Of a stretch of 64,000 nt of DNA, positions 1 to 64,000 are shown piece by piece. The notes below the pieces were generated by a model. The model worked only from the letters and a program-made list of their open reading frames with translations. It made no database searches and was not told the DNA's origin. Position numbers and translations under genes: made by a program. The stretch is taken from positions 868,001-932,000 of the forward strand of contig JAIWND010000008.1 in NCBI GenBank assembly GCA_025330725.1, written 5' to 3'. Numbering within the stretch: position 1 is the stretch's first letter; every line of letters starts with the position of its first letter. The stretch comes from Chlamydoabsidia padenii. Taxonomy: Eukaryota; Mucoromycota; Mucoromycetes; Mucorales; Cunninghamellaceae.

Positions 1-557
1 TCTCTGTGTGTTGCTTCAGGTTTGCTTGTACTAACTCAAATGGTCTAGATGATACTGGATAGGGTGGAACTCGGTAAGGAAAAAAAGGGGAAGGGGTTTC
101 ACTTGATTACTAACATCATACGCATGTTAAATCGGTGGGAAATCACAGTACGAATTACAGCAATCAATAAAACGACATTCTTTTGTGACAAGGCGACTGA
201 TCATATGTGCAGCATGACTAACGACGGAAACCGGCAACCATGACTATGATATATCAAATAAAGGGGGTGCGGGACAAATCATAATGGACATTATAGACAG
301 ATAGATATAGACTAGTTATTGATGTTTTTAAACCTTCCCAAACCAATAAAAGTTTTTTTAAACAATCGTTTTTTATTTATTTTTTATATACAAAGTAGTG
401 AGATGTATACCACAGAAGATAGACTACAAAGAATGATGATGGGTGAATGAATAAAGGGGGTAGAAGAGTGTGTGATATGTAGGGTAAACTAGAATGAATA
501 AAAAGCTATGAATAGTAAATAGGAGTGGGTGGGTGGGGGAAATTGATATCAAGTAAT
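1..557. other. Intergenic DNA, 3' flank of histone H2A
   Basis: No convincing gene. The only ORF of note (49-243, plus strand) has no recognisable domain and ordinary AT-rich composition. The stretch from about 340 to 540 is T/A-rich and would be the 3' untranslated region of the minus-strand H2A gene. A gene ending to the left of the window cannot be excluded. Confidence 0.5.
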
Positions 558-953
558 TTAAAGTTCTTGAGAGGCACCAGCCTTCTTGGACTTGGTAGGC
601 AAGAGGTTGGCGTGGATGTTAGGAAGGACACCACCTTGAGCAATGGTGACATGGCCCAAGAGCTTGTTGAGTTCTTCATCGTTACGGATGGCCAATTGCA
701 AATGACGAGGAATGATACGAGACTTTTTGTTGTCGCGAGCAGCGTTACCAGCCAATTCGAGGATTTCAGCAGTCAAGTATTCGAGCACAGCAGCCAAGTA
801 GACGGGAGCACCACCACCGATACGACCAGCAAAGTTACCCTTGCGCAAATGACGATGAATACGACCAACAGGGAATTGCAAACCGGCCTTGGAAGAACGG
901 GTTTGAGACTTGGAGCCAGAAGCAGATTTACCACCAGATTTACCACCAGACAT
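558..953 (-). CDS. Histone H2A (H2A.X-type tail)
   Basis: Core nucleosomal histone of 131 residues with no intron. The sequence shows the H2A fold from about residue 20 to 118: a basic glycine/serine-rich N-tail, the AGLQFPVGR helix entry, the acidic-patch region and the docking region ending in LLPTK. The last four residues are SQEL, the SQ-[E/D]-hydrophobic motif whose serine is phosphorylated by ATM/ATR-type kinases at DNA breaks in yeast H2A and animal H2A.X, so this canonical H2A probably also serves as H2A.X, as in other fungi. It is divergent from H2B at 1516, and the two share the 954-1515 promoter, an arrangement that keeps dimer partners co-expressed. The start is set by the MSGGK opening typical of fungal H2A. 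Confidence 0.97.
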
Positions 954-1073
954 GTTGTTTTATAATGTTATTTTGAGAGAGAGAAAAAAAAAAAAAGGAG
1001 TTGGGAGGAAAAGAAGAAGAAGGGTAGTAGTTTAGCTCGTTTGCCCCATTATAAATATTCATTTTGAAATCCC

Positions 1074-1113
<40 letters not shown>

Positions 1114-1515
1114 GAGAAAGGAAAAAAAAAGAATCGGGATTTGAAGTTACCGCGTGTGAATGCATGCCTTGGTGGGCGAGCTTGATAGGTGAGGTTCATG
1201 ATGATTTTTTTTTATGCTGGTATTAGTTTCAAAGTGAATGAAATCGCCGTGATTACGTGTTGTTTTCGCGTTAACAATGGAAGCTTGGAATCGAGATAGG
1301 TAAAGTGATGTGTAAGGGTACCTTTGAATGGACCTTCCAAAAAAAAAAAAGGAAGTACCGCGTGGTCGGAATATGAAAGACGTTTCCTTCGTGTCTCACA
1401 GTTCAAGTCACAAGGTATATAAAACCACGTTTCTCAACCCAAAATTTTCCTCTTTCTCTTGCTTTCCTTTTTTTTTTTTTTACACTCACCCACTTACATC
1501 TCTATTATATATACA
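954..1515. promoter_or_regulatory. Bidirectional H2A/H2B promoter
   Basis: This interval lies between two divergent histone start codons. A TATA-like element (TATATAAAA, 1416-1424) lies about 95 bp before the H2B ATG, and an AT-rich TATA-like stretch (1048-1057) lies about 100 bp before the H2A ATG. Between them are two copies of the window-wide motif in opposite orientation: 1062-1076 (complement of ATCGGGATTTCAAAA, pointing to H2A) and 1134-1145 (TCGGGATTTGAA, pointing to H2B), separated by a run of 37 T (1076-1112). Each copy is oriented toward the gene on its side. A nucleosome-excluding T tract between two activator sites is the simple reading, but this is inference. Confidence 0.75.
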
Positions 1516-1875
1516 ATGGCTCCCGCTGGTAAAGCTCCTGCAAAGACTGTCGAAAAGAAGACCAAGGCTGATGGCAAGAAGAGAAAGGTGTCTCGCAAGG
1601 AATCTTATGCCTCCTACATTTACAAGGTCTTGAAGCAAGTCCATCCTGATACTGGTATCTCCAACAAGGCCATGTCCATCTTGAACTCCTTTGTCAACGA
1701 TATCTTTGAACGTATTGCCACCGAAGCCTCCAAGTTGGCTGCCTACAACAAGCGCTCCACTATCTCTTCTCGTGAAATCCAAACCTCTGTCCGTCTCATT
1801 CTTCCTGGTGAATTGGCCAAGCATGCTGTGTCTGAAGGTACCAAGGCTGTCACCAAGTACACCTCTTCCAAATAA
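1516..1875 (+). CDS. Histone H2B
   Basis: Core histone H2B, 119 residues, no intron. The N-tail begins [10 protein letters not shown] and is lysine-rich. The histone fold starts at the [20 protein letters not shown] segment, which is nearly invariant in fungi, followed by the [11 protein letters not shown] helix and the ERKL-type C-terminal helix ending AVTKYTSSK, including the lysine that is ubiquitylated in yeast (K123 equivalent, in the AVTKYT motif). The longer open frame begins at 1459, but the ATG at 1516 is preceded by a pyrimidine-rich leader and gives the conserved protein start. A CAA-rich run follows the stop codon (about 1877-1910). Confidence 0.97.
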
Positions 1876-2164
1876 ATAACAATAACAACAACAACAACAA
1901 CAACAACAATAGCAACAATATCTGTAAAAGGGTCAACTAGTTTAGTAGTGTTATTCCCTTGCTCTTATCATGTCCATTACCCCCTCATTGCTTAGTTTAT
2001 AGTATCATCATCCCTCTTCCCCTTATTCATTCTCTACTTCTCACCTCATGTACAGACTTTTTTTAATTATCTTTATGCTTCAAATAAAACACAAAAAACA
2101 ATATATAAAGCACATACCTAATTATCCTGTCTTTTATAATTGATTTTGTTACTTGAATCTTTGT

Positions 2165-2905
2165 ATGTATGGCTTTGTCTTCTCTTTGTCTAGGTAAGAC
2201 TCTAGTATGTGAATAGATACTATCATACCCCCAAATGTCAAATGGAGAAAATAAATTACCAAACAGTTAACATAGTATTGATGTATACATGATAGTTATC
2301 TTTATTAATTAATTTAATTGTTAAACACTTTATATGCTAATGACTAAAAAAGTCTACACTAATAAAAAAAGTTTACTACTACTATAATAAAGTCTATCCA
2401 TTTGTGTATTGATTTTGTCACATAGTTCACCATGAAGTCTTCATTATCGAGTTCAGTCTCCCTTTTTTTTTCTCCATAATAGAGAAAGATCATGTTGGTG
2501 CATTCCGTGTTGCAAAGAAGTCTACCCATTTGTTTTGTTGTTGTCACATAGTCCATCCTAAAATCATTAATACCGAGATTAGTCCATCATGGAAGCCTTT
2601 ATTATCGAGTCCAGTCCCATACAGTTTTTCCCCCATAACAGAGAAAGATCATGTAGGAACATTCCGTAAAGTAAAGAGGATTCAATTTCAAGTATTGTCA
2701 CAAGGTCCACCGTAAAGTCGTCATTACCGAGTCCAGTCCCATAATGTTCTTTTCCATAACAGAGAAAGATTGTGTTGTTGAATTTCGTAAGGTGAAGAGT
2801 GGATGATGCCAGAGTTTCATTCACGAGTACAAGATCGGCATTAGAATAACTATAAAGACAAAAAAGTAATGAGGATTCAGTTTCAAGTTCCATCGAGACC
2901 AAGCT
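2165..2905. repeat. Left arm of a diverged long inverted repeat
   Basis: The reverse complement of 6535-7085 can be aligned along this segment by eye with only scattered mismatches and small indels: shared blocks include GTCTAGGTAAGACTCTAGTA and GTATTGATGTATACATGAT. Inside the arm a module of about 110-130 bp (with a CCATAA-AGAGAAAGATC core followed by CATTCCGT) is repeated about three times, at roughly 2430, 2600 and 2730. It codes for nothing convincing. With the right arm it brackets a 5-kb island containing the reductase gene and a tandem array. Confidence 0.8.
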
Positions 2906-3013
2906 TTACTTACTGGAGAAGGAGAGCAATCGAATGGGTGCATGAATCAAAAAGGGAGGAAGGAAGAGAAGAAAGGACTCCCCCCAAAAAACCATGATTT
3001 CGTGATTCCCACA

Positions 3014-3027
3014 CCGGGATTTGAAAT
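3014..3027 (+). promoter_or_regulatory. Recurrent motif copy, CCGGGATTTGAAAT
   Basis: Exact copy of the GGGATTTGAA core found throughout the window. It lies inside the repeat island, just past the left arm and downstream of the reductase gene, so it has no obvious gene start next to it. Confidence 0.5.
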
Positions 3028-3057
3028 GTAGCAACAATGACAAAGGACCTTGGTGAA

Positions 3058-3180
3058 TTGAGTTTAAAAATAAAAGCCAGTGTAGAAGCCAGTGTAGAGG
3101 CCAGTGTAGATTGAGCTTGAAAATAAAAGCCAGTTTTGAGGCCAGTGTAGATTGAGTTTAAAAATAAAAGCCAGTGTCAT
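3058..3180. repeat. Short nested tandem repeat
   Basis: A unit beginning TTGAG(T/C)TT(A/G)AAAATAAAAGCCAG starts at 3058, 3111 and 3152, and within it a shorter GCCAGTGTAGA block is itself duplicated. The changing unit length (53 then 41 bp) comes from loss of inner copies. It lies just outside the 3' end of the reductase gene. Confidence 0.75.
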
Positions 3181-3554
3181 CTTGAACTCCCCTAATCTAC
3201 GGTTAAAATAATTTCCCAGCCCAAATTCGGGGCTTAAATTCAAAAGCAGATTCTGCATGAATTTCTTGATTAGGCGAACCGTCTTTCACGGTCAGGGCAA
3301 GTCTATACGACGAGCAATTTACGTTTGAATAAAAAAAAAAATACAAAATATTTTCACCATAATGTGGTCTCCTACCATGGTCTTTTTATTTTACTGCCAA
3401 CACTTACCCTCCAGAACTCGCCAGACCTCTACGTCCCCACATTTGCTCCCCCCCTTGGTGTAATCATTGACATCAAAGTGTTATTAAATAATCATATTAA
3501 AAGTATTATCATTTGATTTGAGATTGCTTTTTGCAACCAAAAGCGCATTCTCAT

Positions 3555-4797
3555 CTATACATCTTTCATAACTAAACGAGGGTAATAGTGGGTTTCTAAA
3601 GCTTCGATTTCCTCAGGGGTCAATTTCAAATTTATACCAGCCAACAAATCATCCAAATGCTTTTCACTTTGAGCACCCACAATAGGAGAGGTCATCACCG
3701 GTTTTGATAATAACCAAGCTACAGCGACCTAAGTAGAAACAAAAAAAGTCAATACCATAGGCAGAAATGAGTCGTTGTTACCTGAGCAGGAGTTACACCA
3801 CGTTTTTCGGCAATGTCTACTAACTGACCCACAATCATATCATTTTCGTTATCTTCTCTAGCCTTATATAATTGCTTAAATCTATTTGCCATAATCTTCG
3901 AACGAGTAGTGTCTGTCGTATTCCTTTTACGGGCCAAGAGCCCACCAGCTAAAGGAGACCAAGGAATCATGGCGATCCCAGAATCCAAACAGTAAGGAAT
4001 CATTTCCCGCTCTTCTTCCCGATAAAGCAAGTTGTACAGGTTTTGCATGGACACAAACTTGGTCCAACCATTCTTCTCGGCGATTTGATTAGCCTTTTGG
4101 AATTGCCAGGCGGAGAGCGAGGAGGCACCAATGTAACGCACTTTACCAGATTGCACAATGTCATGAAGCGCACGCATGGTTTCTTCCAAAGGAATATCTT
4201 GCTTGAATCGATGAACTTGGTACTTTTAAAAAAGAGAAGAGGATGAGAAAAAAAAAAAGAATAGCATGAATTTCCAAAGTTCAAATCCCGACTCACCAAA
4301 TCGATATAATTTAAACCAAGACGTTCCAAAGAGGCATCGATGGCATCAAACAAATGCTTACGGGAGGCACCAACCTCATTGATGTGATTAGGACCTTCGA
4401 AAGGTTTCGGGTTTATACCATGTGCAGGAGTAGGAAGGACGGCACAAGCTGCTTTGGTGGCGACAACAATTCGGCCTCGAGGCATGTTGAATTGTTTGAT
4501 GGCCTTGCCCAACACACGTTCACTTTCACCATTAGAGTATATATCTGCAGTATCAAAAAAGTTGATCCCCTTTTCATATGCCTTGCCAATAATTTCAATG
4601 GATTCCTTTTCATTCAAGACCCAGGGCTGCCATTCGGAGCTGCCGTAACCCATACAGCCAAGGCAAAGTCGAGAGACCTATCAAAAAAAAAAAAAGGGAA
4701 GGGGTTAATAAAGGGCTCATCGAGTATCTTACAGCGAGCTTACCATTAAGCCGGTGTTACCAAACCGTACGTATTGCATTTTCGAAGCGCCAGACAT
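3555..4797 (-). CDS. Aldo-keto reductase, four exons
   Basis: NADPH-dependent oxidoreductase of the aldo-keto reductase superfamily, closest in style to fungal YajO/YPL088W-type enzymes that reduce aldehydes. Exons on the minus strand are 4797-4744, 4677-4297, 4222-3782 and 3728-3555, all joined in phase 0 to give 349 residues, the normal family length. The protein opens MQYVRFGNTGL. The catalytic tetrad is present: Asp and Tyr in GINFFDTADIYSNG, Lys in VVATKA, His in YQVHRF. A cofactor-binding ending, SPIVGAQSEKHLDD, follows the last intron. The gene lies between two inverted repeat arms, so it may have been moved with them. A copy of the window-wide motif lies at the 5' end of intron 2 (4280-4292). 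Substrate unknown. Confidence 0.9.
4280..4292 (-). promoter_or_regulatory. Recurrent motif copy at an intron donor
   Basis: On the minus strand the second intron of the reductase gene begins GTGAGTCGGGATTTGAAC, so the motif overlaps the 5' splice site. It is one of the ten exact GGGATTTGAA cores. Its location inside a gene may mean that not every copy is a promoter element. Confidence 0.45.
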
Positions 4798-5483
4798 TTT
4801 TCCGTTTTTCTTATTATAGGTAGATAATAACCAAGAAGAGAAAAGTAAAAAAAAAAATAAAACTCGACATTTTATACATTCATGAATGTAAACTTGATTG
4901 TAGTGGTGACGATTGCGATACTTCATTTGGTAGGCACTGACGCGGACACTACAAACTGGTATACATTCTTGATATGGTGAACACTGACGTTTCAGATCAA
5001 AATAGTATTACACTCAGCATTTTCAAATTTTCCCTTTAATGATCGAAAACTACTCAGCACATTTGTGTATGAGGTTGCATGACTGTCGGAATTTGAAACA
5101 AACACCCGCTTTTGACGATCGATGACTGTACGTCATTCTCTTGCTTTATGATTGTAAAAAATATGGAGCATATCGAGCATAAATCTAAAAACAAAGTATT
5201 TATGCATACTGAAACACTTGAATCAGATAACCAAGACTTCCTTTCGTACTTTTGGCATTGCAATCTGAACTTTCATTGTTTCTTCTCCATCTTATAAACG
5301 CTATTGCAATACAAAAGTAATAAATAGACATATAGGTATGAGGAAAAAAAAACATTCTTGTGTAAAATTCATTTAGCATTAGGGGTTTTGCTTTATTCAT
5401 GCCTTTACATTGAATAAAGTAACCCTTTCACACCCGATGATTGGGACGAATGAAATGCTAAGCGCACGGAAAGTGCTCACGTA
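4798..5483. other. Intergenic DNA 5' of the reductase gene
   Basis: Presumed promoter of the minus-strand reductase gene. A diverged motif copy (GTCGGAATTTGAAA) lies around 5085-5098, about 290 bp from the start codon. No other gene is supported. Confidence 0.4.
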
Positions 5484-6380
5484 ATTTTGGGAGAGCACTA
5501 CTCGCTCAATTGTCAACGGATGCTAATGATTAAAGTGGCGATGTGAATACTATAGCATGTTTACCACATAAATCACCGCAAAAGCCAAGCTCCAAGACCC
5601 TTATGTCGGTCAGTCCAGACTTGCGATGGCTTTTACCTGTCATTTGCAAGAAAGAAAATTGACAGACAAGAGTAATTTGTTTAAACCCCCGCTTACCCTC
5701 GCCTTGAATCTTGAGAGTGCTCTACTAGCTTAGTGAACAAGTGATGCTAATGACAAAAGTGACCATGTGCATTCCTTAGCCTATTTCCAACAAAGTTTAC
5801 ATAATGACCAATATACCAAGTCCATTGTATGTATCAGTCTAGCCTCAAGATCGTTTTAACCTGACTTCTGTAAAAAAAGTTGCAGAATAAAAAATTGACA
5901 CACAAGACAAAACTTATTTCAAAACCCGCTTACCCTCGCCTTGAATCTTAAGAGGACTCTACTAGCTTAATGAACAAGCGGTGCTAATGACAAAAGTGAC
6001 CATGTGCATTCCTTAGCCAATTTCCAACAAAGTTTACATAATGACCAATATACCAAGTCCACTATATGGAACAGTGTAGCCTCAAGATCGTTTTACCCTG
6101 ACTTTGTTAAAAAAAAGAGACAGAACGAAAAATTGACATACAAGACAAAACTTACTTCAAAACCCGCTTACTCTAGCTTGGAATCTTAAGAGAGCTCTAC
6201 TGCCTTAATGAACAAGCGATGCTAATGACAAAAGTAGCCATGTGCATTCCTTAGCCTATTTACAACAAACTTTACATAATGGCCAATGTACCAAGGCCAT
6301 TGTGTCGGTCAGTCCAGACTTGCGATGACTTTTACCTGTCCTTTGCGATTAAAGATTATTCAAACACCGATTACCAAAAT
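5484..6380. repeat. Tandem array with a 237-238 bp unit, about 3.8 copies
   Basis: The phrase GCTTACCCTCGCCTTGAATCTT starts at 5691 and 5928 and, slightly diverged, at 6166, giving a constant spacing of 237 and 238 bp. A partial, more diverged copy precedes 5691. All copies carry the blocks GATGCTAATGA-AAAAGT, CATGTGCATTCCTTAGCC, AACAAA-TTTACATAATG and AAAATTGACA-ACAAGACAAA. The two end copies share GTCGGTCAGTCCAGACTTGCGATG, which the middle copies lack. There is no open reading frame through the units. It looks like minisatellite DNA built by local duplication inside the repeat island. Confidence 0.85.
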
Positions 6381-6534
6381 CTCGCGTGCCTAGCAATTCC
6401 CAAAATCAGGGGCACCCTTCAAAATGTTTATTTTGGCCGAATCTCAATTTCTTTCTTCCCTTTTTCATTCACTCTCTCTTTATCTCTCCAATTTAGACGA
6501 TCCACAACTTTAATGACGGTCGCCTGTAGGCTCA

Positions 6535-7190
6535 AAGGTGTATGGTGGGATTCTTTCTCTGTCATGAAAAAGAACGTTATGGGACTGGACTCGGTAAGGC
6601 TAACTTTATGGTGGACCGTGTGAAAATACTCGAAACTAAATCTCTTTACCTTTTTGCCTTTATAGTTATGCTAATGGTGATCTTGTACTCCTCCACTCTT
6701 CACCTTACGGAATGCACCGACAGGATCTCTCTCTATTATGGAAAGAAAAGGGGACTGGACTCGGTAATGAAGACTTCATGGTGAACTATGTGACAATATC
6801 CATACACAAAGGGATAGACTTTATCATAGTAGTAGTAGGCTTTATTATAGTAGTAGACTTTATTAGAGTAGTATCAAGTTTTTTTTATTAATATAGACTT
6901 TTTTTCAATTATTAGCATATGGAGCGTTTAACAATTAATTAATAAATATAACCATCATGTATACATCAATACTATGTTGTAATTGTTTGGTAGTTTATTG
7001 TCTACATTGGACATTTGGAGGATATGATAGTATCTATCCCAGTACTAGAGTCTTACCTAGACGGCCCAAAAAAGCAAAGACATACCCCTCAAGAAGCCAT
7101 ATAACCAAGACGAGACGTAAAAGAGTGGATGGAGATGCAAGATTGGCATTGGGATTTAGTTCTTCGAGACCAAGTTTTACTTTCTAATAA
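6535..7190. repeat. Right arm of the long inverted repeat
   Basis: Inverted relative to 2165-2905 over about 550 bp (6535-7085). The outermost part (about 7115-7190, with TTCGAGACCAAG-TTTACTT) matches the left arm's inner end in direct orientation, so the arms have been rearranged. The arm holds its own two copies of the CCATAA-AGAGAAAGATC module on the opposite strand. No target-site duplication was found by eye. Confidence 0.8.
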
Positions 7191-11735: not shown

Positions 11736-13148
11736 CTATCCAGACAAGCGATTCTTCCAACCTTTCCAAAAGGATTTTTGTCGCCCCAATCCTTTTCCAT
11801 CAAACGAAGATCCTAGATTATAGTGAAGAGAAGGATCATGGAGAAGCATATCTTGTACCGAGTCACCACCTACAAGTTTTTGATGATGAGCCACCGAGTC
11901 GCGCAAACAGCCAATAGGAGAAGAAGAGGGAGTCAAGAGAAGAGTGCTTCGAGGAGAGGAATTGGATGTTGTTGATGATAACGATGAAGAGGATGATGAT
12001 GGTAATAATGGCAACTTTTGTTTTGGTGGAGGTGTTTGAGGAGGTGAAATTGATCTTGAAGAAGGAGGTTTTGTCAAAGGAGCTGATTGATGATGGTGGT
12101 GATTAAATTGTTGTATATTGTTGACATTAACCCAATCAATTAAGGATAAAGTAGATAGGGATGTGGTGGAGGTGCAAGAGGAAAAGGAGGAGCCGGTGGA
12201 AGAAGAGGAGGTCGTTCTGGGATGATGTCGGGGTTGTTGTTGTTGCCCTCCCTCCGTGTTGTATAATAGTTGATGTGTCAGTTCCTTCACTTTTTCGACT
12301 AGTATATCCCGCTCTTCAGCCATTAGAGTCACGAGATCTTCCTTGTCGTCCAATTCCATTCTTTGTAATTCCAACTGAGATTGCAGTAATATGATTTGTT
12401 GTTCCTGTGATGTCAAAGATGCAGGCTTGTTGTTGTGTTCAATGGCATTGATGAGCTTTTCTTGGTTTTTGACAATAGAGGCCAGGAGGTTCGTATAAAG
12501 TCGATTGTGTTCGAGTTCACCTACGTACTTGTTGATCATCCATTGAGTACCGATATCACATGCTGCCAACTGTTGTTGTAAATCTGCAATCTGTTGTTGT
12601 TGTTGATTCTGAGCAGAAGCCTGTTGATGATAAGTGTTGATGATATCTTCCTGATCGTCATTTGTCAAGTGTTGGGAGGGTCCTTGACATGTGGCGTCAC
12701 TGTAAATGTCACTGATATCAAACCAGCAAAAGGAGGAAGGACCAGGTGGCAAAGTTGATATTTCCTTTTTTGTCAAAGATGCACATGCTGGTGATTCAGG
12801 GGTGGTTTTGATCTTCCATCCATCAAGTTGTTGCTTTAAATGATCCCTTTCTATAGTCACTTTTTCCAATTGTTGTATGAGGGACGTCTTTGTAGTGTTG
12901 GTGTCAATAGGTGTGAGATGATGAGATGATAAGTGTCGACTTGGTTTTGGATTTGATACTTCTTGACTTGATCGTTTTGGTGCTTTATCTGTATTGATGG
13001 TAGTATTGGTTGAAGAAGACCCAAACTGGCTGCGAAGAGAAGCAATGTCGGGACCTGGTTTACTGCGTCGATTTAGAGTAGGTTGCGTGCCCTTTGTACT
13101 ACTACTTTGTTGGTTTAAAGCAGCAATAACAGCTTGTACATTACTCAT
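11736..13148 (-). CDS. Coiled-coil, low-complexity protein of unknown function
   Basis: Single-exon protein of 470 residues with no family I recognise. The first 90 residues are polar and Ser/Thr-rich, beginning MSNVQAVIAALNQQ. Heptad-like coiled-coil segments follow at about residues 88-112 (SLIQQLEKVTIERDHLKQQL), 180-200 (glutamine-rich), 205-245 and 248-295 (ILLQSQLELQRMELDDKEDLV). After residue 300 the protein is dominated by Ser, Pro, Thr and His runs. It ends in a short basic/aromatic tail (SFWKGWKNRLSG) that could be an amphipathic or peptide-binding motif. The composition suggests a cytoskeletal or scaffold role, but that is a guess. The ATG at 13148 is the first in frame, and a motif copy lies 131-144 bp upstream. 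Confidence 0.7.
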   Translation of the reverse strand: MSNVQAVIAALNQQSSSTKGTQPTLNRRSKPGPDIASLRSQFGSSSTNTTINTDKAPKRSSQEVSNPKPSRHLSSHHLTPIDTNTTKTSLIQQLEKVTIERDHLKQQLDGWKIKTTPESPACASLTKKEISTLPPGPSSFCWFDISDIYSDATCQGPSQHLTNDDQEDIINTYHQQASAQNQQQQQIADLQQQLAACDIGTQWMINKYVGELEHNRLYTNLLASIVKNQEKLINAIEHNNKPASLTSQEQQIILLQSQLELQRMELDDKEDLVTLMAEERDILVEKVKELTHQLLYNTEGGQQQQPRHHPRTTSSSSTGSSFSSCTSTTSLSTLSLIDWVNVNNIQQFNHHHHQSAPLTKPPSSRSISPPQTPPPKQKLPLLPSSSSSSLSSTTSNSSPRSTLLLTPSSSPIGCLRDSVAHHQKLVGGDSVQDMLLHDPSLHYNLGSSFDGKGLGRQKSFWKGWKNRLSG

Positions 13149-47690: not shown

Positions 47691-49004
47691 TTAAAGGTTT
47701 AAAATAAAGCGCACCATTCCATTCGAGATGATTTCCCACTTCACATTCATGACGGTCCGATCACGAAAGGTTTCCAAAACGCAGTCTTCAACCAGTACCA
47801 AGACTTGAGATGAGGATGATTGATTAGATGTTGTTGTCTTCTTTTGTCTGTGTTGTAATTCGGTGCTGTTCTTGTTTGAAGTAGGATCACGACGCCATAG
47901 CACCTCGGTTACACTGTTTGCCTGTAATGAGAATAACGCGCTAAGCTTGATTATAAGTTGCTGCACCGTAATTACATCTAGGTCGATTCGTTTGAGATCT
48001 GGTGATGATGATTGGTGTTTCTTTGTATCTACAAATAGAGTCAGGGCTTCATATACCGAGTAAAAAAAAAAAAAAAGATGAGTACAAACGTATGATTTAT
48101 CATCCAATTCCTATCAACTTACAAGATCGAGTACCTTGATGTTTCTTCATTGGGGGCGATTGGTCTTCAGAAGACGAGTGATCCAGAGCTGAAGCAACCA
48201 CGTGAGATCGAGATCGCTTCATGCCAAGGAAAGGAGACGATTTGGAAGATGTTTGATGTTGCCCGTATCCCAAAGAGGAAAGTGGCAATGATGGTGAAAT
48301 CAAGGGACTGCATCCAAGTGAAGAAGGAGTCGGAGAAGATGACATCTGAGACGAACAAGAGAATGTCGGTGGATAAAAAGATGACATGATGACCATTCCA
48401 TTGTCGTGTTGTTGATAATGATTGCGATTACCATCAGCAAGCACATGTGAGGTCGACACAGTAGACACAGATGATGATAAAGGCGATGTTGTTAAAGGAT
48501 AGGCGCTTGATAAGGTGGATGATGTCAAGTCATATGCAGCTGGAGATGTGATAATGCTGGAAGCCACTGTTGGTACTGGTAAAGTGGAGATTGGTGCCGC
48601 TGTTAATGCTATAGTTGAAGATATCGCTGCAGATGATGCCCTGGGAGGTGATGATGATGGTGACAAAGATGTTGATGATGGCATTAGAGAGAGATCTTCC
48701 TTGGCAATTTCGTCTTCTTCAAGCAAAGGTTCAAACAGACTATGAGGGAGTATCGGTCGACTATAGAAATGCCAAAGAGGATTCTGTAGTGGATTCCCAT
48801 CAGCTGAATAGTATACCAATGAATAGATTAGTACTATTACTATGCCAATTTGTCTTGTTTCTTCTGTTACCTTTCATCTTCTCCAGTTGTTTTGAGATCT
48901 GCTTGGCATCATCTTTGCTTTTTCGTTCGGCGCCCTAAAATGACAAATTGTTTAGTATGCATGAATATGTACGAAAGTGGGGCATAACTATGTGTGACCA
49001 ACCC

Positions 49005-49041
<37 letters not shown>

Positions 49042-50702
49042 CACTTTACCTTATCCCTGAAGAGTTTGATTTTACAGAATGACTTTTCCTTGTATGGCAC
49101 CAGATCGCCATCCGAGGAAGGAGTAGCCACGGACTCAACCAGAGCCCGCAGAGGAATCCCCTTGACACCCTTGATTCTTGAAAAGTCCGTGGACAGGCAG
49201 TTAAAACGAACAAACAAGGTGGCGCCCACATGAGATTGCCACTGGATGGTGATGGTATCAAATGAAGGATAATAGACATTGACCAGACCAGAAGATTGTT
49301 GAATGTCCAAGTCCAAAGCACGGGCTTCATTAGGGTGATCTTGTTGACTAAGCCAAAAGCGCCAATAGTTTTGAGAGGCGAGTCGATGGGCAGCTTCATG
49401 GAAGGTGATCGAGATAGTGCTGGTAATCAATGTGCTGGTTTTTGATGAGGTCGAGTGATCTTGAAAATGAAGTCCATATGCCTGTCCTCGGTTTAGATAC
49501 GTCAGTGATGATGATTCCCCGTATTTTTGTGCTGCAGCAGTGGATGCTTGTAGTAAAACTTGGTAGCGTAGTGGCGTTGGTGATCTATATATATATTGCA
49601 ATAAGGAGAATGATTAGTATATTACACGTGGTAGCCACCTTGTCATAAATATATATTTTACAGTAGCCATTGCTTTGTTCCAGCCCCCCTTTCCTTTTAA
49701 GTTTATCCCCCGCACGCAGGCACAAAGCACATACATATGACTCCCTTCCCCACCTTCACCCCGTAATGACACTGTACTCTTTTGATCCTTCCCCCCCTTT
49801 TTTTTCTTCTTCCCCTTTTATGTGTATAATCTTTTTTTTTTTTTTTTTTTTTTTTTTTGATATATGTTAACTTACGATGATGGTTCCACGATGTTAGTAT
49901 GTTGAGGTTGCTTGAGAGCCGATGTTGGTGATAATGAGGAGAATGCAGAGCCAGTTGGTGATAAAGATGACAATGAAGAATATGATGATTGTGAGAGATT
50001 AGGATGTTGATGCATAGTTGTTGACCATGGAGTTGATGATGATGTTGATGATGATGATGATAAAGAAGATACTGTGGTATCAGTGGTAGATGAGTTGTTG
50101 TATGACACCATTGATGATGATAGTCGACGTTGAGCAGTGATATTATATCCTTGGTGCATTGGCTGATGATACCGGGAGTGATCATGGTGTGAGTTTTGTT
50201 GTAAGATTCCATTTGCACTGTGGTGGCGAGGGTGACTCCGTTTAACAAGTTGGTTGTATCTTGGAAGACTTGATGGAGAAGCTGGCAAAAGATGCCCTGG
50301 AGGTGGTGGCAGATTAGCATAAAAAAGATCATTATCCATAGAATAACCCATACCCATGTCAGAATTAGTTGGATACTTTTGATTCCATAATGCTTGTGCA
50401 TAGTTATTGCTACGTTGACCTTTTGTTGAATTACACTGTGGAGAAGCCAAGTCGGTCAATTTTTGAGATGAAGAGAGTGATCCATGGACGAGTGCTGGGG
50501 ATGAGTTGGAATGGTCGTGAAGTAACATATCAGATTCCTGTTTGTATGTATGATCCATATTCGTTTTGATATAATGGTATTGACTATGCGAATAAAGATA
50601 TTGAAATAAAATTAAAAAAGTCCAGTTGAGTACATTCAATTTAGGAATTCGGTCTACTTACGTATCATACACAGAGTCCCCACAATGTTCACTGGCAATC
50701 AT
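47691..50702 (-). CDS. Grainyhead/CP2-family transcription factor
   Basis: Sequence-specific transcription factor with an immunoglobulin-like DNA-binding core shared with p53. In Neurospora its relative is linked to cell-wall remodelling and conidial separation. At least six exons. A tiny first coding exon (50662-50702, MIASEHCGDSVYDT) joins in frame to exon 2, whose alternative in-frame ATG is at 50558. Residues 1-240 are Ser/His-rich and disordered. The CP2 domain lies in the next exons: TYLNRGQAYGLHF, WRFWLSQQDHPNEARALDLD, GATLFVRFNCLSTDFSRIKGVKGIPLRALVE and CKIKLFRDKGAERKSKDDAKQI, all close to animal Grainyhead. A Ser/Pro/Thr-rich linker and a C-terminal domain of about 110 residues (YTKKHQSSSPDLKRIDLDVI ... 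VKWEIISNGMVRFILNL) follow. Confidence 0.87.
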
Positions 50703-51800: not shown

Positions 51801-51814
51801 TTTCAAATCCCGAC
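51801..51814 (-). promoter_or_regulatory. Recurrent motif copy with adjoining T tract
   Basis: Exact consensus copy, GTCGGGATTTGAAA on the minus strand, directly followed on the plus strand by CC and a run of T. No gene start assigned nearby. Confidence 0.55.
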
Positions 51815-56202: not shown

Positions 56203-56307
56203 TTTGATAAAACAGTGACAGATGCAAAAGAATGAAGAAGAGATAATCAAGAAAGAAAAAAAAAGAATCAGCTCTGTCCGGATTGAAATATGTTTGATTC
56301 TCTTTTA

Positions 56308-56323
56308 TTTTCAAATGCCGACC
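56308..56323 (-). promoter_or_regulatory. Recurrent motif copy, 106-121 bp upstream of the BRE4-type gene
   Basis: On the minus strand GGTCGGCATTTGAAAA, one base from the consensus and oriented toward the gene. Confidence 0.55.
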
Positions 56324-56826: not shown

Positions 56827-56841
56827 GTCGGGATTTCAATT
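56827..56841 (+). promoter_or_regulatory. Recurrent motif copy, 89-103 bp upstream of VMA22
   Basis: GTCGGGATTTCAATT, oriented toward VMA22 and followed by a T-rich leader, like the MDM12 copy. Confidence 0.65.
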
Positions 56842-56929
56842 TTAAACGACTACCTCGATTCTTTTTTTTTTTGTGTGGATTTGATTTTTCTTCCTTTCTT
56901 CCACATCTCCACCTGGACTTTTGTAAATA

Positions 56930-57788
56930 ATGGGCACCACCACTATTTTAGACGATGACGCTCGACTTGAAAAAGTATGCAAAGAACTGGACGACTTGAC
57001 GTTATTGTATCTCTCCAAATTAAATCAATATACCCAGAGTAGAGTAGCAACAAGCGACGCATTACAAAAGGTAAGGTCTTCCTGATTAATAGTGTGTAGA
57101 CAGATTAAACCAACAAACAAATGATACTTCTTTTATTAGGGTTATCTAGATTTAGCTCATGCCAAGTATACTATGGGTGCCAAAGCCATCTCTCACCTTT
57201 CATATGATGAAAGAATGAAAGCACAAGTGGATCTGTAAGTCTATATCAACAACAGAAAAGCCCCAGTCGACTCACTCATCTTGTTACTCACTCTTTAAAT
57301 AATACATAGCTTGGTGAATCATAATAATCAGTCGCCTTACACATTGACAAGATTACCTGCAAAAGATGACAAGGAATCAACTGACAAGGACGATAGCGGA
57401 CTTCGACAACGGAAGGAAAAGGGACAAACAAAGGATACTGACAGCGTGACGGAAAACAAAGGGGCCAAGAAGAAGGTAGTAAAAGTGAACGGGAATCCAT
57501 TACACTGGTTTGGTCTACTCGTCTCACCCTCTTTACGGACTTGTCAGAATCATTTTCAAGCAGGTAAAGTGACATGTAGAGAATCTAACCCGAGACTAAT
57601 CCATATATATATATATATATATTTGTTAAATAGCAACAACCCACCTGGTTGATTTGGCCAATATGGTCCATGATTTAAATGGCATGGAACAACAATACCA
57701 AACATTGAAGGAAGAAAAGAGTAAACTACTAGGACAACAACTGGACAAGACGACAGTATCATTATCAAAGGCAACCATAGTAGAATAG
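56930..57788 (+). CDS. VMA22: V-ATPase assembly factor VMA22 (CCDC115)
   Basis: ER-associated chaperone that, with Vma12 and Vma21, helps assemble the membrane V0 sector of the vacuolar H+-ATPase. Four exons, about 210-220 residues. The N-terminal helix (LEKVCKELDDLTLLYLSKLNQY) is followed by GYLDLAHAKYTMGAKAISHLSYDERMKAQV, which parallels the human CCDC115 block GWLSLAKARYAMGAKSV. A Lys/Asp-rich linker leads to NPLHWFGLLVSPSLRTCQNHF and the closing helix HLVDLANMVHDLNGMEQQY; human CCDC115 has the same NWFGILVPHSLRQAQ arrangement. The start at 56930 is the first ATG after the T-rich leader. No sign of damage. Confidence 0.85.
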
Positions 57789-57951
57789 ATCCATCACTTT
57801 TTTATATAATAAAAACTGTATATACAAATAATGTTTTGTTTATTTTATTGGCATTTTATCATTGGTGGGTTGGAGGGGGGATGATGCTATAGCTAATTAC
57901 TAAATGGCAGGTGTAAAAAAACAAAAAAAGGAGGGATGGGATTGTATTGAT

Positions 57952-58393
57952 CTACACGTTTTGTTCGGGATGGCGTAAAGAATGGAATGTCTCTTTATCG
58001 ACAAGCTATAGTTATTATCAAATAAAGAAGGATAAGTATGTTGTTAATGTCGTCAGACTTGAGTACTTTTTACCTGCAACTTTTGATCTTGGTCTCGAGA
58101 GACATCATTATATTCCATATGGGCACTAAAACAAATCAAAAAGTTAATCATCATCAGTGTATAAGAAGTATACTTACTCTTCGACAACAGCGATTTCATC
58201 AGCGTAGGTTCCCCAATTGGCGTGCCCGGCTCCAGACTTTTTGACAGGGCTACGGACATTATCATTCAATCCATTTCTTCAATTCGTATAAATTAGTCAT
58301 ATAATCAATCATACGATCATTTGGTTTGTATACTTACCTAGCAAAGTGTCGTTCTTGTTTGCCATTCTGGAGTTGGTCCTTGCTTCGAGTCAT
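57952..58393 (-). CDS. STF2/TMA10-like hydrophilin
   Basis: Small, very polar protein of about 86 residues in four exons. Yeast Stf2 and Tma10 stabilise the ATP synthase-inhibitor complex or ribosomes and protect dried cells; they share an N-terminal MTR opening and the motif KKQGSGKGNWGKPGDEIDD. Here MTRSKDQLQ opens the protein and VKKSGAGHANWGTYADEIAVVE forms the same block around residues 30-52. The C-terminal tail is charged (VSRDQDQKLQLVDKETFHSL). The gene order and intron phases (AG|A, GA|T, then phase 0) are consistent. The protein would have been missed by ORF length alone. Its exact yeast counterpart cannot be told apart. Confidence 0.75.
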
Positions 58394-59336
58394 GGTGAGT
58401 TGTGTAAAAAATGTGAGTGTGTGAATATGAAAAAAGTATGTGTGAGAAAAGTAAAAGAGAAACGGCTGAAAATAAATCAAATAAATGGAGCGCGAAAAAG
58501 TAGGGGGGGTCATGCTTGATGGTGTGATCTTTTCATTCAATGGGGTGGGAAAAGCGAAAAATCATGCGATATTTCAATCGCCGATTGAACATCCCGTAAC
58601 CCCACACTCACTCACAAAGTGGGGTTGGAAAAGAAACAAGTTGATGGATCATTCCCATTGATGGAATCCACTTTACCAACACATCATTCATCTATTGATT
58701 TCCCCTTCCAAGTGTTGAGGAAAATAAGAATCATCACATGGACATGTTCAAGTTTATAAGACTTGATTGGTGGGCGGTTATTTCTTACCTGGGAAAATAT
58801 AGTTTGCATGTAAAACGGAACCATTTATGATCACCTGGTGTCAAATCATCATCCTAACCAAAAGCAACCCTAGTTAGCTTTAGCCGACATATGAGCACCA
58901 ATCCATGTTGTACAATAGAATGACTGGTTTCTCGTTAATGGGGGCAGTAAGCGTAAAGAATGATTTTCCTTTTTCGGAACTTGAAAATCATTTCGTGTTT
59001 GAAGATGATTGAACGTCTTTATGCTAAACCGAAACATATCCGATATATATTGATGGGGTACATGTATAGTCATGTTGAGATTCGATATGTCGTCTGCCTC
59101 AAACCCTGTGTTTACACTTTTATAGAAATTCTACATATCCGTTTTCCATGTGTAGATACATTCAAGTAGATATAGTTTATATATGATATAGGGCCATGCA
59201 GCTGTCAAAAGTAATAAAAAAAAACACAGGACAGTCGGGATTTGAAAATAACCCTTTTGAAGTGATGTTTCAAAAAAGTTTTTATTTTTCCTCACCTCTC
59301 TCTTCCCCGTTTAACTTGCTGATCTATCCAGCATTG
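58394..59336. other. Divergent region, STF2-like and THUMP methyltransferase genes
   Basis: A diverged motif copy (TTTCAATCGCCGATTGAA, itself nearly palindromic, about 58571-58588) lies some 180 bp from the STF2-like start, and 59234-59248 is near the THUMP gene. The middle has no supported gene. Confidence 0.45.
59234..59248 (+). promoter_or_regulatory. Recurrent motif copy, 89-103 bp upstream of the THUMP gene
   Basis: GTCGGGATTTGAAAA, exact consensus, oriented toward the gene and preceded by an A run. Confidence 0.65.
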
Positions 59337-60970
59337 ATGGAAGGATCCACTATCCATATTCTATTCCATGTCCCTGAAGGTAATAGAAAAGAAAAAAGAA
59401 ACCACCAAGATACACTTTACGACCTGTCTAATCTTTTAATCCTTTAGGACTCGAACAAACTGCTATTGTGGATTTGAAGGAAACCATTTTCCCTTTCGAA
59501 CTCGCTGACCCTTTGGCGACTGTATTCATTGGTGAAGAACGAACAGGGCGGGCTCATTTATTCTCTAAACTCGAACAACAAGACGACATTAAACGATGGA
59601 TTCAATACTTACAGTCCACGGTACTACTTAGTGTTTACCACATGACGATCATTACCAAAACCACCACAGTACCTTTGACTGTATATCACGACGAACAAGA
59701 TCAAGAAGTACTTGGAAAATACCTTTATAACACCATTCAAGAAGCACCCTGGCAGCAATACATTCCTTCACTGAACAACAACACAGACAACACGCCTTGT
59801 TTCCGAGCAACATTTTATAAAGATCAATTACAACATGGCATCAAGACTCAAGAACTTGGTGGTTGGATGGGATATGCTTACAATCAACTTTATCCTGATT
59901 GGAAGGTTAGTTTGAAAACCTATGATTACGATGTGGTGGGTGTTTGGGGCCGAACTCGGGATGTAGCACTCTTGGGTCATTTTGGATTAGCAGATTTAGG
60001 CAATGCACCAAGTACAAACGACGAAGATCATCGACCGATTATACTCCATGTTGGCTTCAATATCCCTATGCCTGATACCAAATATAGAAATCGATTATAT
60101 TTGGGACGAACTAGTTTGAATCCTCCTATTGCTTATTGTCTTGTACGCCTGGCGAACCCATTACCTGGTCAAATCATCATGGATATGTGTTGTGGTACTG
60201 GTAAGTTAGTGAAAGGAATAAAAGTGAAAAAGTATCCAACTCTTATTCTTTTATATATATATATAATATAGGAACCATTCCGATCGAAGGTAAGAAAAAA
60301 TAAAAGGATATGATATATATGGATCTAACATAATATTTATCTTTTATAGGTGCAGGGAAGTATCCTAACACATTCTGGGTGGGTGGAGAAGGTAAGGAAA
60401 CGCTGAACAAAGAATCATAACTTTATTGATTAACCCTTTGTGATCTACAGTCAAGGTAAAAACATTGTGTCTCAAGGCAAAAGGGAATATGCAACACGCT
60501 GGTGTACAAAATGTTGATTTGTTGATCAGTGATGGCCGAAAATTGAATATCAGATCTGGATGCATTGATACCGTGATCTCAGGTACTTGCGCCCTGAAAA
60601 AAAAAAAAATAGAAATTAAGACCAATACTAATCAACGTTATATATAAATATATATATATATTATTAGATTGGCCTTGGGGTGTCCGTGAAGGATCATTTG
60701 CAACAATACAAAAGGTAAAAAGAAGACAAGATAAGATAAAATATGACTAATTGACTTTTTTCTTTGATTTAGCTTTATCCCAAATTCATGCGACAACTTG
60801 GACGAGTATTACGAAATGGTGGGAAAGGATATATCGTCTGCCAAGGAAACAAGCTAATGCAAAGGGTGTTGGACTATGATTGGGTAAAAGACCTTTTTAG
60901 AATAGACGAAATTATAAATATAGCAATAGGTGGTTTGGGTGTTTGTGTCTACATTTTAATAAAGAAATAG
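59337..60970 (+). CDS. THUMPD2/3-like RNA guanine-N2 methyltransferase
   Basis: SAM-dependent methyltransferase of the THUMP/Rossmann type that makes m2G in tRNA or snRNA. At least seven exons: 59337-59378, 59448-60200, a microexon 60272-60289, one from 60350, and further short ones. The N-terminal part opens MEGSTIHILFHVPEGLEQTAI, the entry typical of THUMP methyltransferases (a VPEGLE-like phrase). The methyltransferase domain begins near YLGRTSLNPPIAYCLVRLA. Motif I is DMCCGTG, continued by the microexon's TIPIEG. The catalytic motif IV is SDWPWGVREG in place of the NPPY or DIPFG of relatives. The ending (LRNGGKGYIVCQGN) is the usual C-terminal strand pair. The upstream in-frame ATG at 59262 is less likely. 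Confidence 0.78.
60272..60289 (+). other. 18-nt microexon of the THUMP methyltransferase gene
   Basis: Sequence GAACCATTCCGATCGAAG lies between AG (60270-60271) and GT (60290), with introns of 71 bp and 60 bp on either side. It keeps the frame (G|GA ACC ... GAA G|GT) and encodes the six residues following DMCCGTG in SAM motif I. Confidence 0.8.
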
Positions 60971-61471
60971 TTGTTTGTGTGTTTATCATCTCATGTTATC
61001 AAATGGTGTCTCGATATCTATATTTGATTGGCTGGTTATAACCAACGTGTGCTGTTGTTTTTGGTCACAAGGGATTATAATAGTTTGAACGAGGACCTCA
61101 TGATGACACTTTTTATTGCCAATGCCTTCTCCTTTTCTTTTCACCTGACAGGGTAAATAAAAAGATGATCTTTTTGGGGTTTTCTACTCCTTACATGCAA
61201 ACTGATAGTGCGTGATAGATCTGCCTTGGTTCACATCAAGAGAGGCGGATAGTCCAGCCGATCGGATTTTCAAATATCCCGTTGATCCAATCAGGACCAC
61301 ACGTGTCGAATATGAATCAATACTATTGGCGACTTCATTTCTAATTGTATATCATCTCTTTAAGGCTGACCCATTGGAGAAAGAATAAAATAAAACGATC
61401 ATCAACGTCTTTTTTTTTTTTTTTTTTTCTTTCTTTCTTGCTCTCTTCTCTTTCTTTTTATTCCATCATCC
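60971..61471. other. Promoter region of the second bHLH gene
   Basis: A CACGTG E-box (61300-61305) lies about 170 bp before the start, a CCAAT box at 61288-61292, and a palindromic motif-like stretch (ATCGGATTTTCAAATATCCCG, 61261-61281) just upstream. A T run (61411-61428) precedes the leader. Confidence 0.5.
61300..61305. promoter_or_regulatory. E-box CACGTG upstream of a class B bHLH gene
   Basis: The palindromic hexamer recognised by class B bHLH proteins. The gene it precedes encodes such a protein, so self-regulation is possible but not shown. Confidence 0.5.
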
Positions 61472-62230
61472 ATGTCTCCACCTACTTCACCCATATCACC
61501 ATCATCATCTGTAACCTCCACTTGTCCTTCCAAAAAACGCCGACGATCCTCGGCGGATGAAGTACATCGAGCTCATCCTAAATTTTCTCCATTGGTGGCA
61601 TTACCTCCTCCAATGGTTTCATACGCCGCCCCCAATGTGGCCTATTATCCTGTCTACACCAATCATAACGGTCAATTCTATATTGCTTCACCACCCTTAG
61701 ACCCCACCCCCAAACTCTTACCAAAGCTACCCACTGATCCACCCACACCTTCCTCACCATATACTTTTTATCATCCATACCAATTATCACCACCACCCAC
61801 CACCGCGCATGAACGAGAACAAGCACGCAAAGTGTCACATAGCGCTATCGAGCGCCGACGCCGAGAACGCATTAATGACAAGATCATGCAACTGAAACAA
61901 TTGATACCCACCTGTGCCAATCAAGATAACCTCCACAAGATGTCTATTTTACAAAGCTCGATTGATTATATCACTTATCTAAAGGATGTTTTACAACAAG
62001 TCGGCTCGTTGGGTGATGTGGATGACAAAATGCATAAAGTTAAAACCCCGAAATCCATGCTTCCAAAAGAAGTCGAGCCCTATACCAGTCAATTCAATGC
62101 CAACCAGCCTACTACACAACAATGTTTAAAACCAATGGATATCATTATGTCTGGTTCAAAGAAACAACCTTCTTCCTCGGATTTGCCATCCCCGACAAAA
62201 AGTATGAGTGTAAAAGACTTGTTATGTTGA
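61472..62230 (+). CDS. bHLH transcription factor
   Basis: 252 residues, one exon. The first 110 residues are Pro/Ser/Tyr-rich with a basic patch (KKRRRSSADE). The bHLH domain occupies about residues 120-175: VSHSAIERRRRERINDKIMQLK as basic region and helix 1 (His, Glu and Arg at the CACGTG-contacting positions) and MSILQSSIDYITYLKDVLQQV as helix 2, which reads on into a short coiled coil. The tail carries a Ser-rich stretch and SMSVKDLLC. It resembles fungal bHLH regulators of growth or lipid genes in general layout, but I cannot assign an orthologue. Confidence 0.88.
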   Translation: MSPPTSPISPSSSVTSTCPSKKRRRSSADEVHRAHPKFSPLVALPPPMVSYAAPNVAYYPVYTNHNGQFYIASPPLDPTPKLLPKLPTDPPTPSSPYTFYHPYQLSPPPTTAHEREQARKVSHSAIERRRRERINDKIMQLKQLIPTCANQDNLHKMSILQSSIDYITYLKDVLQQVGSLGDVDDKMHKVKTPKSMLPKEVEPYTSQFNANQPTTQQCLKPMDIIMSGSKKQPSSSDLPSPTKSMSVKDLLC

Positions 62231-62553
62231 TTAATACCTTTATTCTTTTCTTCATTTTATTGTAATGCGCATATCATATTCATTCAAAGTAAATAAACAT
62301 TTGTTGTAATGTATATCCATATTGGTCTTTATCTTATGCAAAAGTCAAAGGGTCAGAGTGGGGTCAAATGTTCACGCGGCGCTTAAAAAGTTGCATGATT
62401 TTGGATGTCCTGGTTTTTTACACATATCTTTTTATTACAATAGGTCAATAAAAGATAGATAATAATGATAATAACACAAATAGATAAGGATAACATACAT
62501 AGAATAATTAACTAGACTACACTACTAAATAACTAGGATGGAGTGGAGAGGGA
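62231..62553. other. Short convergent intergenic region
   Basis: 3' ends of the bHLH gene (AATAAAC near 62292) and the kelch-type gene. Nothing else recognised. Confidence 0.4.
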
Positions 62554-64000
62554 TCAATGTCGTTGTTCTTCATCACCAGGAGCATGTAGTCCACGCATAC
62601 GAGACCAGATATCTTCATGTCGAGCCATTGGTTTATCATCAGACGCCAAAGATCGTTCATTGTCCTGAATTAACTGTCGTTCCCATTGATCATGATCGGT
62701 TGCCGTATAAGTCTTGAGTCCACCTTGATTCCCTGCAGATCCTTCTTGCGTCGTGTTGTTGTTGTAGGTAAAAAGAGGATAATCGTTTCTTGGTGGAGGA
62801 GCACCGGGTGATGTAGTCATTGTGTTCGATGAAAGTGCACCAGGCATCCAACGAGGGTTCAATTGTCGAGCCTTGTTACGACGACGATAAAAGAAGAAGC
62901 CACCCACAAGACAGGCAATGACAAAGAGTGGTACAGCGACACCAATCCCTCCTTTTTCGGGTGTGGTCAGCGCATCATGATGAGCATTGGGATTACTAAT
63001 AACCGAAGTGTCGTATAGTTTAGGTGCGTCGCCAGATAGTTGATGGGTCGCAGGTAATGGAGGGAAGGAGTAGGTACAGCTTGGTGATGTTGATACACTG
63101 GAAGGTGAGTAGTCGCCAGGAATAGATGTCACCCATGTCCATGTATCGGTATCCAAAATAGCTACATCACTGCTGGGGAGAGGTGTTTGACCGTCGTGTC
63201 CATTGACACCTAGCATGGTGACCATATATTTGCCGTACATATATGCCTGGTGCGCGGCTCGTCCGTTTGAGTGTCCGTTGATATATTGTTTACTCCATGT
63301 CAAGGTGCAGGTATCCAATACAGCCACTTCGTTCGTGACAGATGCAAGTGCATCGGCGATGATGCCTCCAAAAACAATAATGGAATGCCCGTCTTGTGCT
63401 GTAAAAAAGTTCAAAAATATTGTTAACCCATGTCCCACCATATTTTCATCTCCCCCCCTTCCCACAGTCCACCGGATCACTTACATGCGACAGCTGAGAA
63501 TCTATAATGTATATATATATATAATTAAGGTGAGTACGTTGGATTCTTTTATGTTGCGTTATTTTATTAACACCTTACCCACTTCTTGCGGATGGGATAT
63601 CACCAATGGTTTCCATTGATATAGCACTATTGGATGAGATGTCAAATACTATTGAAAAAGAAGTTGTTAGTATGTTTCTTCACTTGTCCCTTTTTCTTCT
63701 TCTTCTTTACCGAATGCACTAGCAAAGTCAATGATCATTTCTGTTGACGAGTTTACAGCAATATAACCACCAAGAGAGAATAACTTGTTATTACTATATT
63801 GGATAAAGTGATGCAGATTAGTACAGGAGAGTGGGTTCAAATCATAATATACACTTACACCAAAGTGGTCGAATGACCAAACCGACCAACAGGAGTACCA
63901 TAAGGTGAGTTGATGGAAATTTGATCGATAGATATAGAAGCCACGTTGTTATTGAATTGGTATGAGTAGATGGTATTATAAGCCCTGATAGCATAATTCT
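62554..64000 (-). CDS. Kelch-type single-pass membrane protein, 5' end outside the window
   Basis: Partial gene on the minus strand; the start lies beyond 64000. The exons seen encode kelch-like beta-propeller repeats: SIIVFGGIIADALASVTNEV followed by LDTCTLTWSKQYINGHSNGRAAHQAYMYGKYMVTMLGVNG, then ILDTDTWTWV, each with the G-G and Y/W spacing of kelch blades. One transmembrane segment follows (GGIGVAVPLFVIACLVGGFFFY), then a basic stop-transfer RRRNKAR and a Pro/Asn-rich cytosolic tail of about 110 residues ending GDEEQRH. Such proteins are common in Mucoromycota and usually carry an extracellular propeller. The ligand is unknown. Confidence 0.75.

Follow-up and report, generated by a model that had tools for sequence, protein, structure and literature searches.

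A strict CGG-N-D-TTT-N-AA word upstream of nearly half of the predicted genes sampled in Chlamydoabsidia padenii, a putative site of a general promoter factor

Introduction

In budding yeast, general regulatory factors (GRFs) such as Reb1, Abf1, Rap1 and Cbf1 recognize short, strict words that recur in many promoters, in either orientation and near poly(dA:dT) tracts, and factors of the Reb1/Abf1 type keep the proximal promoter nucleosome-free. A different class of protein, the Zn2Cys6 factors that bind as monomers, uses a CGG triplet followed by an AT-rich tail, for example CGGNSTTATA for yeast Stb5. Here we describe a short word, CGGGATTTGAA, that recurs in a 64,000-nucleotide stretch of the mucoralean fungus Chlamydoabsidia padenii (C78:868001-932000; hereafter, the window) and thousands of times in the rest of the assembly, and that probably marks the promoters served by one abundant factor. 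Our search of the open PubMed Central (PMC) literature, with subscription papers and preprints outside it, found no description of such an element and little on promoter architecture in Mucorales, and among the matches listed for papers holding the 10-mer at the core of the word on either strand, no title concerned fungal promoters. The N6-methyladenine (6mA) motifs given for Mucorales in an excerpt of PMC11258239, AAA6mACA and VATB, differ from the site.

Results

An earlier note on the window, made from its letters, had reported ten exact copies of the 10-mer GGGATTTGAA. All ten are there to within 1 bp of where it had placed them (1136+, 3016+, 4280-, 13280-, 18738+, 23797-, 31033-, 41631+, 51802- and 59237+), and the seven diverged copies that it also listed were recovered to within 2 bp. 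A C directly precedes every one of the ten, and the word is therefore CGGGATTTGAA, which we call the exact word. With up to one mismatch it has 28 matches in the window, against a mean of 1.44 and a maximum of 5 in 100 dinucleotide-preserving shuffles. The relaxed pattern CGG-N-D-TTT-N-AA, which we call the strict site, has 35. Across the assembly (34.2 Mb in 95 contigs), where the controls are reversed patterns and not shuffles, counts are far above control for both: 1,902 + 1,909 = 3,811 copies of the exact word against 1 + 1 = 2, and 14,510 strict sites against 543.

All positional statistics come from two stretches, C1:1-200000 and C78:828001-932000, which together make up 304 kb or about 0.9% of the genome; the results below refer to this sample unless they are called genome-wide. 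The core of the motif is the top-scoring non-repetitive 8-, 9- and 10-mer of this sample relative to a Markov expectation. Single-substitution counts show CGG, TTT and AA to be nearly invariant, with preferences at the remaining positions: at position 4 the order is G>A>T,C, at position 5 it is A>T>G with C absent, and at position 9 it is G>A,C>T. The sample holds 163 strict sites, and 149 are left after removing 14 with similar flanks. A logo of these 149 adds R-K ahead of CGG and W-W behind AA, spanning about -1 to +14, and no conserved information is found in the flanks beyond. The spacing of the two halves is exactly two, as CGG-N2-TTTGAA occurs 96 times and any other gap from 0 to 12 occurs 0 to 6 times. 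Fixed-spacing dimers were not apparent, the six close pairs of sites following no pattern. As a side observation, A7 tracts tend to lie on the side of CGG and T7 tracts on the opposite side, in counts that overlap so that a few long tracts weigh heavily.

Genes were predicted ab initio with a hidden Markov model (HMM) for this analysis, and every gene count given here is a count of predictions. The sample has 115 models, of which 93 reach 450 coding bases and 105 or 106, depending on edge rules, reach 300; 37 of 70 scanned exons match a Pfam family (E up to 1e-4 or up to 1e-5, depending on the scan). Exons contain 12 sites in 160.6 kb (0.075 per kb). Upstream of the ATG, site density per kb is 0.24 at 0-40 bp, 0.96 at 40-80 bp, 5.82 at 80-120 bp, 2.11 at 120-160 bp, 2.20 at 160-200 bp, 0.98 at 200-300 bp and 1.13 at 300-400 bp. 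The peak at 80-120 bp consists of 23 sites in 3.95 kb, 12 of them in the orientation of the gene and 11 opposite to it. We find a site centred 70-130 bp upstream of 34 of 106 genes, while random intergenic placement gives 7.3 +/- 2.6 (2,000 trials, maximum 18), which bears out the upstream clustering that had been noticed in the window. Two of the initial generalizations were too broad. The word had been said to recur in most promoters, and a strict site lies 50-250 bp upstream in 49 of 105; it had been said mostly to point to the gene, and within 200 bp of the start 24 sites do so and 18 face the other way. When the interval is set to 60-180 bp, 44 of 105 promoters have a perfect site and 24 more a one-mismatch site, against 3 and 10 in reversed sequence.

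Among the 93 larger genes, a site is present up to 200 bp before the start in 42 and up to 200 bp past the stop in 10. Of the intergenic regions, 23 of the 24 between divergent genes contain a site, as do 36 of the 55 between tandem genes and 10 of the 25 between convergent genes. Going upstream from the ATG, T/C-rich tracts are most frequent at 20-80 bp and TATA words at 60-100 bp, so that a promoter usually runs from the site through TATA, where there is one, and the pyrimidine tract to the ATG. TATA frequency is alike in promoters with the motif (8/46) and without it (13/59), and neither excludes the other. A site lies up to 250 bp from the start in, among others, the histone genes and genes with PIGA, Ric8, DAHP synthase, Tom22, TrkH, syntaxin-18, COPA and CSN8/PSMD8/EIF3K domains. 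No site stands within that distance in a GATA gene, a PPR gene, a HAMP-domain gene or one of the two HLH genes. The set may be biased towards housekeeping genes. The closest named relatives of a GATA protein encoded in the window, at 45-51% identity, come from Chlamydoabsidia, Halteromyces and Absidia. Separately, the count of CCAAT is 951 and that of its reverse 405, and CCAAT boxes are possibly a further element. A telobox word was tried against the sample and rejected.

The histone genes offer a view of the site across paralogous promoters. We find three clusters of H2A, H2B, H3 and H4 in the genome (C78:864470-869797, C3:539430-542661 and C31:166143-169175), with H4 recognized by its N-terminal word. 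Seven of the 12 histone promoters carry a strict site at 96-148 bp, four a one-mismatch site at 110-174 bp and one neither, and the best site is directed to the gene in all 11 promoters that have one. Gapped alignments of the upstream 200 bp from different clusters reach only 45-64% identity, suggesting that these promoters have little in common except the site. A TATAWA word follows 12-97 bp downstream of the site in nine of the 11. The three clusters, together with six E2F/DP-family matches in the genome, suggest duplicated genome segments. Outside the histones, one of the genes used as a query for paralogues had none.

A second word, TGCATGAA, is also abundant and often accompanies copies of the motif outside promoters. 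As TGCATGAAT it has 1,652 + 1,713 = 3,365 copies genome-wide against 19 + 31 = 50 for the reversed pattern. TGCATGA is concentrated 150-350 bp past predicted stops, where 20 of its 57 eligible sites lie compared with 7.6 expected (P<0.0002), and there is hardly any of it at 0-150 bp ahead of starts. Pairs of CGGNDTTTNAA and TGCATGAA within 80 bp number 18, against 7.6 expected when the genic/intergenic split is kept (maximum 15 in 500 trials), and in 16 of the 18 the gap is at most 25 bp. Among 100 and 67 listed places of the two words on C1, there are five same-strand pairs within 40 bp against 0.4 under uniform placement, a number also reached in one or more of 3,000 random trials; four of the five lie outside the sample. 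After removal of repeat-borne copies, the share of sites with GCATGA within 35 bp is 9/18 in 3' flanks, 4/46 in promoters, 1/19 for genic sites and 17/50 for the remainder, compared with 6.5% of random intergenic points.

The sites of the sample fall into four classes, with 47 up to 250 bp upstream of a start, 20 at 150-350 bp past a stop, 19 genic and 77 elsewhere. Repeated flanks surround 30 of the 163 sites, and only one of these is among the 47. Many of the 30 belong to a tandem unit of 237-240 bp that is dispersed in the sample. Of 17 units aligned, 13 contain a strict site (counted by eye), and it shows no special conservation beyond the rest of the unit. A sister stretch of this unit occurs at many places in the genome, with at least 79 matching pieces (40 scored of 548 first-look candidates). 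Since repeats were examined in the 304 kb only, low-copy families are missed. Within the window, imperfect long inverted-repeat arms (within 2188-2873 and 6552-7062) bound the segment 2188-7062 and enclose an aldo/keto reductase gene and the 237-bp tandem array.

The individual copies in the window are given in Table 1. Five of the ten exact copies, those at 1135, 13280, 23797, 41630 and 59236, precede a predicted start by no more than 250 bp, one is intronic (4280), one is 264 bp past a stop (51802) and three are elsewhere (3015, 18737 and 31033). A near-match to the second word, CGCATGAAT, starts 8 bp beyond the site at 51802..51812. The longest exon of the predicted gene at 59337, which had been read as a THUMP gene, is without a Pfam match.

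Table 1. Copies of the word in the window, with two examples of the second word on C1
Sequence	Position	Strand	Context
CGGGATTTCAA	1064..1074	-	116 bp upstream of H2A ATG
CGGGATTTGAA	1135..1145	+	H2A-H2B divergent promoter; H2A ATG at 187 bp, H2B ATG at about 375 bp
CGGGATTTGAA	3015..3025	+	inverted repeats flank the stretch; no predicted start near
CGGGATTTGAA	4280..4290	-	predicted intron 4223-4296 of aldo/keto reductase gene
CGGAATTTGAA	5087..5097	+	more than 250 bp from predicted start
CGGGTTTTGAA	5918..5928	-	repeat-borne, within 237-bp tandem repeat unit
CGGGTTTTGAA	6156..6166	-	repeat-borne, within next 237-bp unit
CGGTGTTTGAA	6359..6369	-	repeat-borne, just past tandem array
CGGGATTTGAA	13280..13290	-	137 bp upstream of single-exon gene 11736-13148 (-)
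CGGGATTTCAA	13835..13845	+	87 bp upstream of MMM1-domain gene (13927; read earlier as MDM12)
CGGGATTTGAA	18737..18747	+	290 bp upstream of predicted gene 19032
CGGCGTTTGAA	18936..18946	-	91 bp upstream of predicted gene 19032, opposite orientation
CGGGATTTGAA	23797..23807	-	104 bp upstream of predicted gene 23906, opposite orientation
CGGCGTTTAAA	25527..25537	+	142 bp upstream of predicted gene 25674
CGGGTTTTGAA	30264..30274	-	297 bp past predicted stop; 3'-flank class
CGGGATTTGAA	31033..31043	-	about 370 bp upstream of La + LARP1-domain gene (31408), opposite orientation
CGGAATTTGAA	35085..35095	-	80 bp upstream of Glyco_transf_10 gene (35170), opposite orientation
CGGGATTTTAA	40781..40791	-	306 bp past predicted stop; 3'-flank class; TGCATGAA nearby
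CGGGATTTGAA	41630..41640	+	174 bp upstream of amino-acid permease gene (41809)
CGGGATTTTAA	43989..43999	+	190 bp past permease stop; 3'-flank class
CGGCGTTTAAA	50841..50851	+	144 bp upstream of predicted gene 47691-50702 (-), opposite orientation
CGGGATTTGAA	51802..51812	-	264 bp past predicted stop of FUSC/BRE4-domain gene
CGGCATTTGAA	56310..56320	-	113 bp upstream of FUSC/BRE4-domain gene (start 56202)
CGGGATTTCAA	56829..56839	+	96 bp upstream of Vma22-domain gene (56930)
CGGGATTTGAA	59236..59246	+	96 bp upstream of predicted gene 59337 (read earlier as THUMP)
CGGATTTTCAA	61263..61273	+	204 bp upstream of HLH-domain gene (61472)
TGCATGAAT	C1:42175-42183		example of the second word
TGCATGAAT	C1:69569-69577		example of the second word

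Discussion

We propose that R-K-CGG-(G>N)-(A>G,T)-TTT-(G>A>C>T)-AA-W-W is, probably the site of a single abundant general promoter factor that would work like yeast Reb1 or Abf1. What points to this are features read directly from the DNA: the sequence of the site and its strictness, its abundance, its position relative to predicted starts, its equal use of both orientations, the promoter copies that lie outside repeats and its retention in histone promoters. A putative sequence-specific protein would occupy the site, in either orientation, at nearly half of the genes. Its binding would keep the proximal promoter nucleosome-free in the manner of yeast GRFs, nearby poly(dA:dT) tracts perhaps assisting in clearing nucleosomes, and the opened promoter would let the initiation machinery assemble just downstream of the site. 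The idea of a core or proximal promoter element bound by some factor, already present in the earlier note, gains support from abundance, from upstream clustering and from the lack of a common repeat family around the copies.

Several observations weigh against this proposal. More than half of the predicted promoters (56 of 105) are without a strict site, as is the H2A promoter of the C3 histone cluster, which has no one-mismatch site either. Two older paralogues of motif-bearing genes likewise have no strict site within 250 bp of where homology begins. Of the 163 sites, 77 are neither promoter, 3'-flank nor genic, and convergent regions still have 0.97 sites per kb compared with 1.40 in divergent ones. 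A density of 0.45-1.29 sites per kb persists from 400 to 3000 bp upstream of starts, and even after repeat-borne sites are dropped it is 0.69 per kb, well above that of exons, which argues for a large intergenic population that known starts do not account for; these distant sites could reflect missed genes, non-coding transcripts or another role. Lastly, the gene models are our own ab initio predictions, with a Pfam match in 37 of the 70 exons scanned.

The pairing with the second word raises the idea that one putative general factor does two jobs. Alone, mostly 80-120 bp before the ATG, it would open promoters; paired with TGCATGAA, usually within about 25 bp, it would mark the 3' flank of a gene 150-350 bp past the stop, as a roadblock terminator or a boundary between neighboring genes. 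We consider this extension doubtful, at perhaps one chance in a few. CGGNDTTTNAA itself is only marginally in excess in 3' flanks (20 of 97 against 13.0; P=0.03), and unannotated start sites could account for this; both points weaken the dual-role reading.

Four other explanations deserve consideration. The best of them, though an improbable one, is that the word is a core-promoter element, TATA-like or initiator-like, that places the start site itself. Its distance peak is narrow and close to the zone of TATA words, as such an element would have it. However, both orientations are equally used (12/11), TATAWA stands downstream of the site in nine of 11 histone promoters, and TATA words are similarly frequent with and without the motif.

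Slightly less probable again is a composite element of the DREAM type, in which CGGG would serve as the E2F half, or cell cycle-dependent element (CDE), and TTTGAA as the cell cycle genes homology region (CHR) bound by LIN54. The likeness lies in a CG-rich half followed by TTTGAA: 116 of 149 sites have TTTRAA, which falls inside the CHR consensus TTYRAA given in an excerpt of PMC4974476, the genome has its six E2F/DP-family matches, and worm LIN-54 promoters carry an adjacent E2F/LIN-54 hybrid motif, according to the excerpted text of PMC3093354. The published CDE, however, sits 4 bp upstream of the CHR (PMC4974476, in the same excerpt), whereas CGG-N4-TTTGAA occurs twice here and the 2-bp spacing 96 times, and it is on this spacing that a DREAM CDE/CHR fails. 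In addition, 33 of the 149 sites have TTTYAA instead, the E2F word TTTSSCGC is no commoner than its reverse (22 against 20), and searches for LIN54 and LIN9 with the Pfam TCR and DIRP families and the human LIN54 CXC region gave no match, in searches in which no positive control gave a signal, so that these blanks are not proof of absence. DREAM elements also serve cell-cycle genes, unlike the motif here, which accompanies about half of the predicted genes.

We give little credence to a transposon or satellite family that scatters the word. It would account for the 30 sites with repeated flanks and for the strict site in 13 of 17 tandem units, but only one of the 47 promoter sites is repeat-borne, the flanks of de-duplicated sites carry no information and there is a single peak of distance from ATGs; conserved flanks are thus absent except at the repeat-borne copies, and the word does not form the ends of one repeat family.

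Scattered TFIIIC sites, the rival named at the outset because the complement, TTTCAAATCCCG, has letters like those of the B box GWTCRANNC of RNA polymerase III genes, are scarcely credible: B-box words are in mild excess (179 against 97 reversed, part of it possibly from motif sites), yet the invariant positions of the box are not kept (at its C position G in just 84 of 149 sites, at its G position C in just 8), GWTCRANNC fits in register in 3 of 149 sites, loose A-box words accompany 1 of the 149 sites on the expected side and 3 on the control side, and ARAGORN run with the bacterial code, which could miss intron-bearing tRNAs, found no tRNA gene in the sample.

Like Zn2Cys6 monomer sites, the word has a CGG, two free bases and an AT-rich half, and it differs from them in its tail; the Stb5-like CGGNSTTATA is not enriched (3 against 4 reversed). 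This resemblance is a lead to a class of protein only; the TTTRAA half recalls LIN54, and no test supported either. Present in nearly half of the promoters sampled, a single strict word provides a direct bait for the dominant promoter factor of this lineage. It also offers a clean test of GRF-type promoter opening outside Dikarya, and it can be used for start-site annotation and in expression constructs.

The closest comparison remains that with the GRF sites of budding yeast. As with those sites, ours is short and strict, is abundant and close to the starts of predicted genes, though many copies lie outside promoters, and occurs in either orientation, as the near-even split at 80-120 bp illustrates. 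The sequences of the yeast sites differ from the motif, and the words of Reb1, Abf1, Cbf1, Rsc3 and Rap1 show no excess in the 304-kb sample; we therefore say that the site works like a GRF site and not that it belongs to the sites of those factors. Given that GRF sites have been replaced between lineages, as an excerpt of PMC2897762 has it, the site described here could be their counterpart in an early-diverging fungus.

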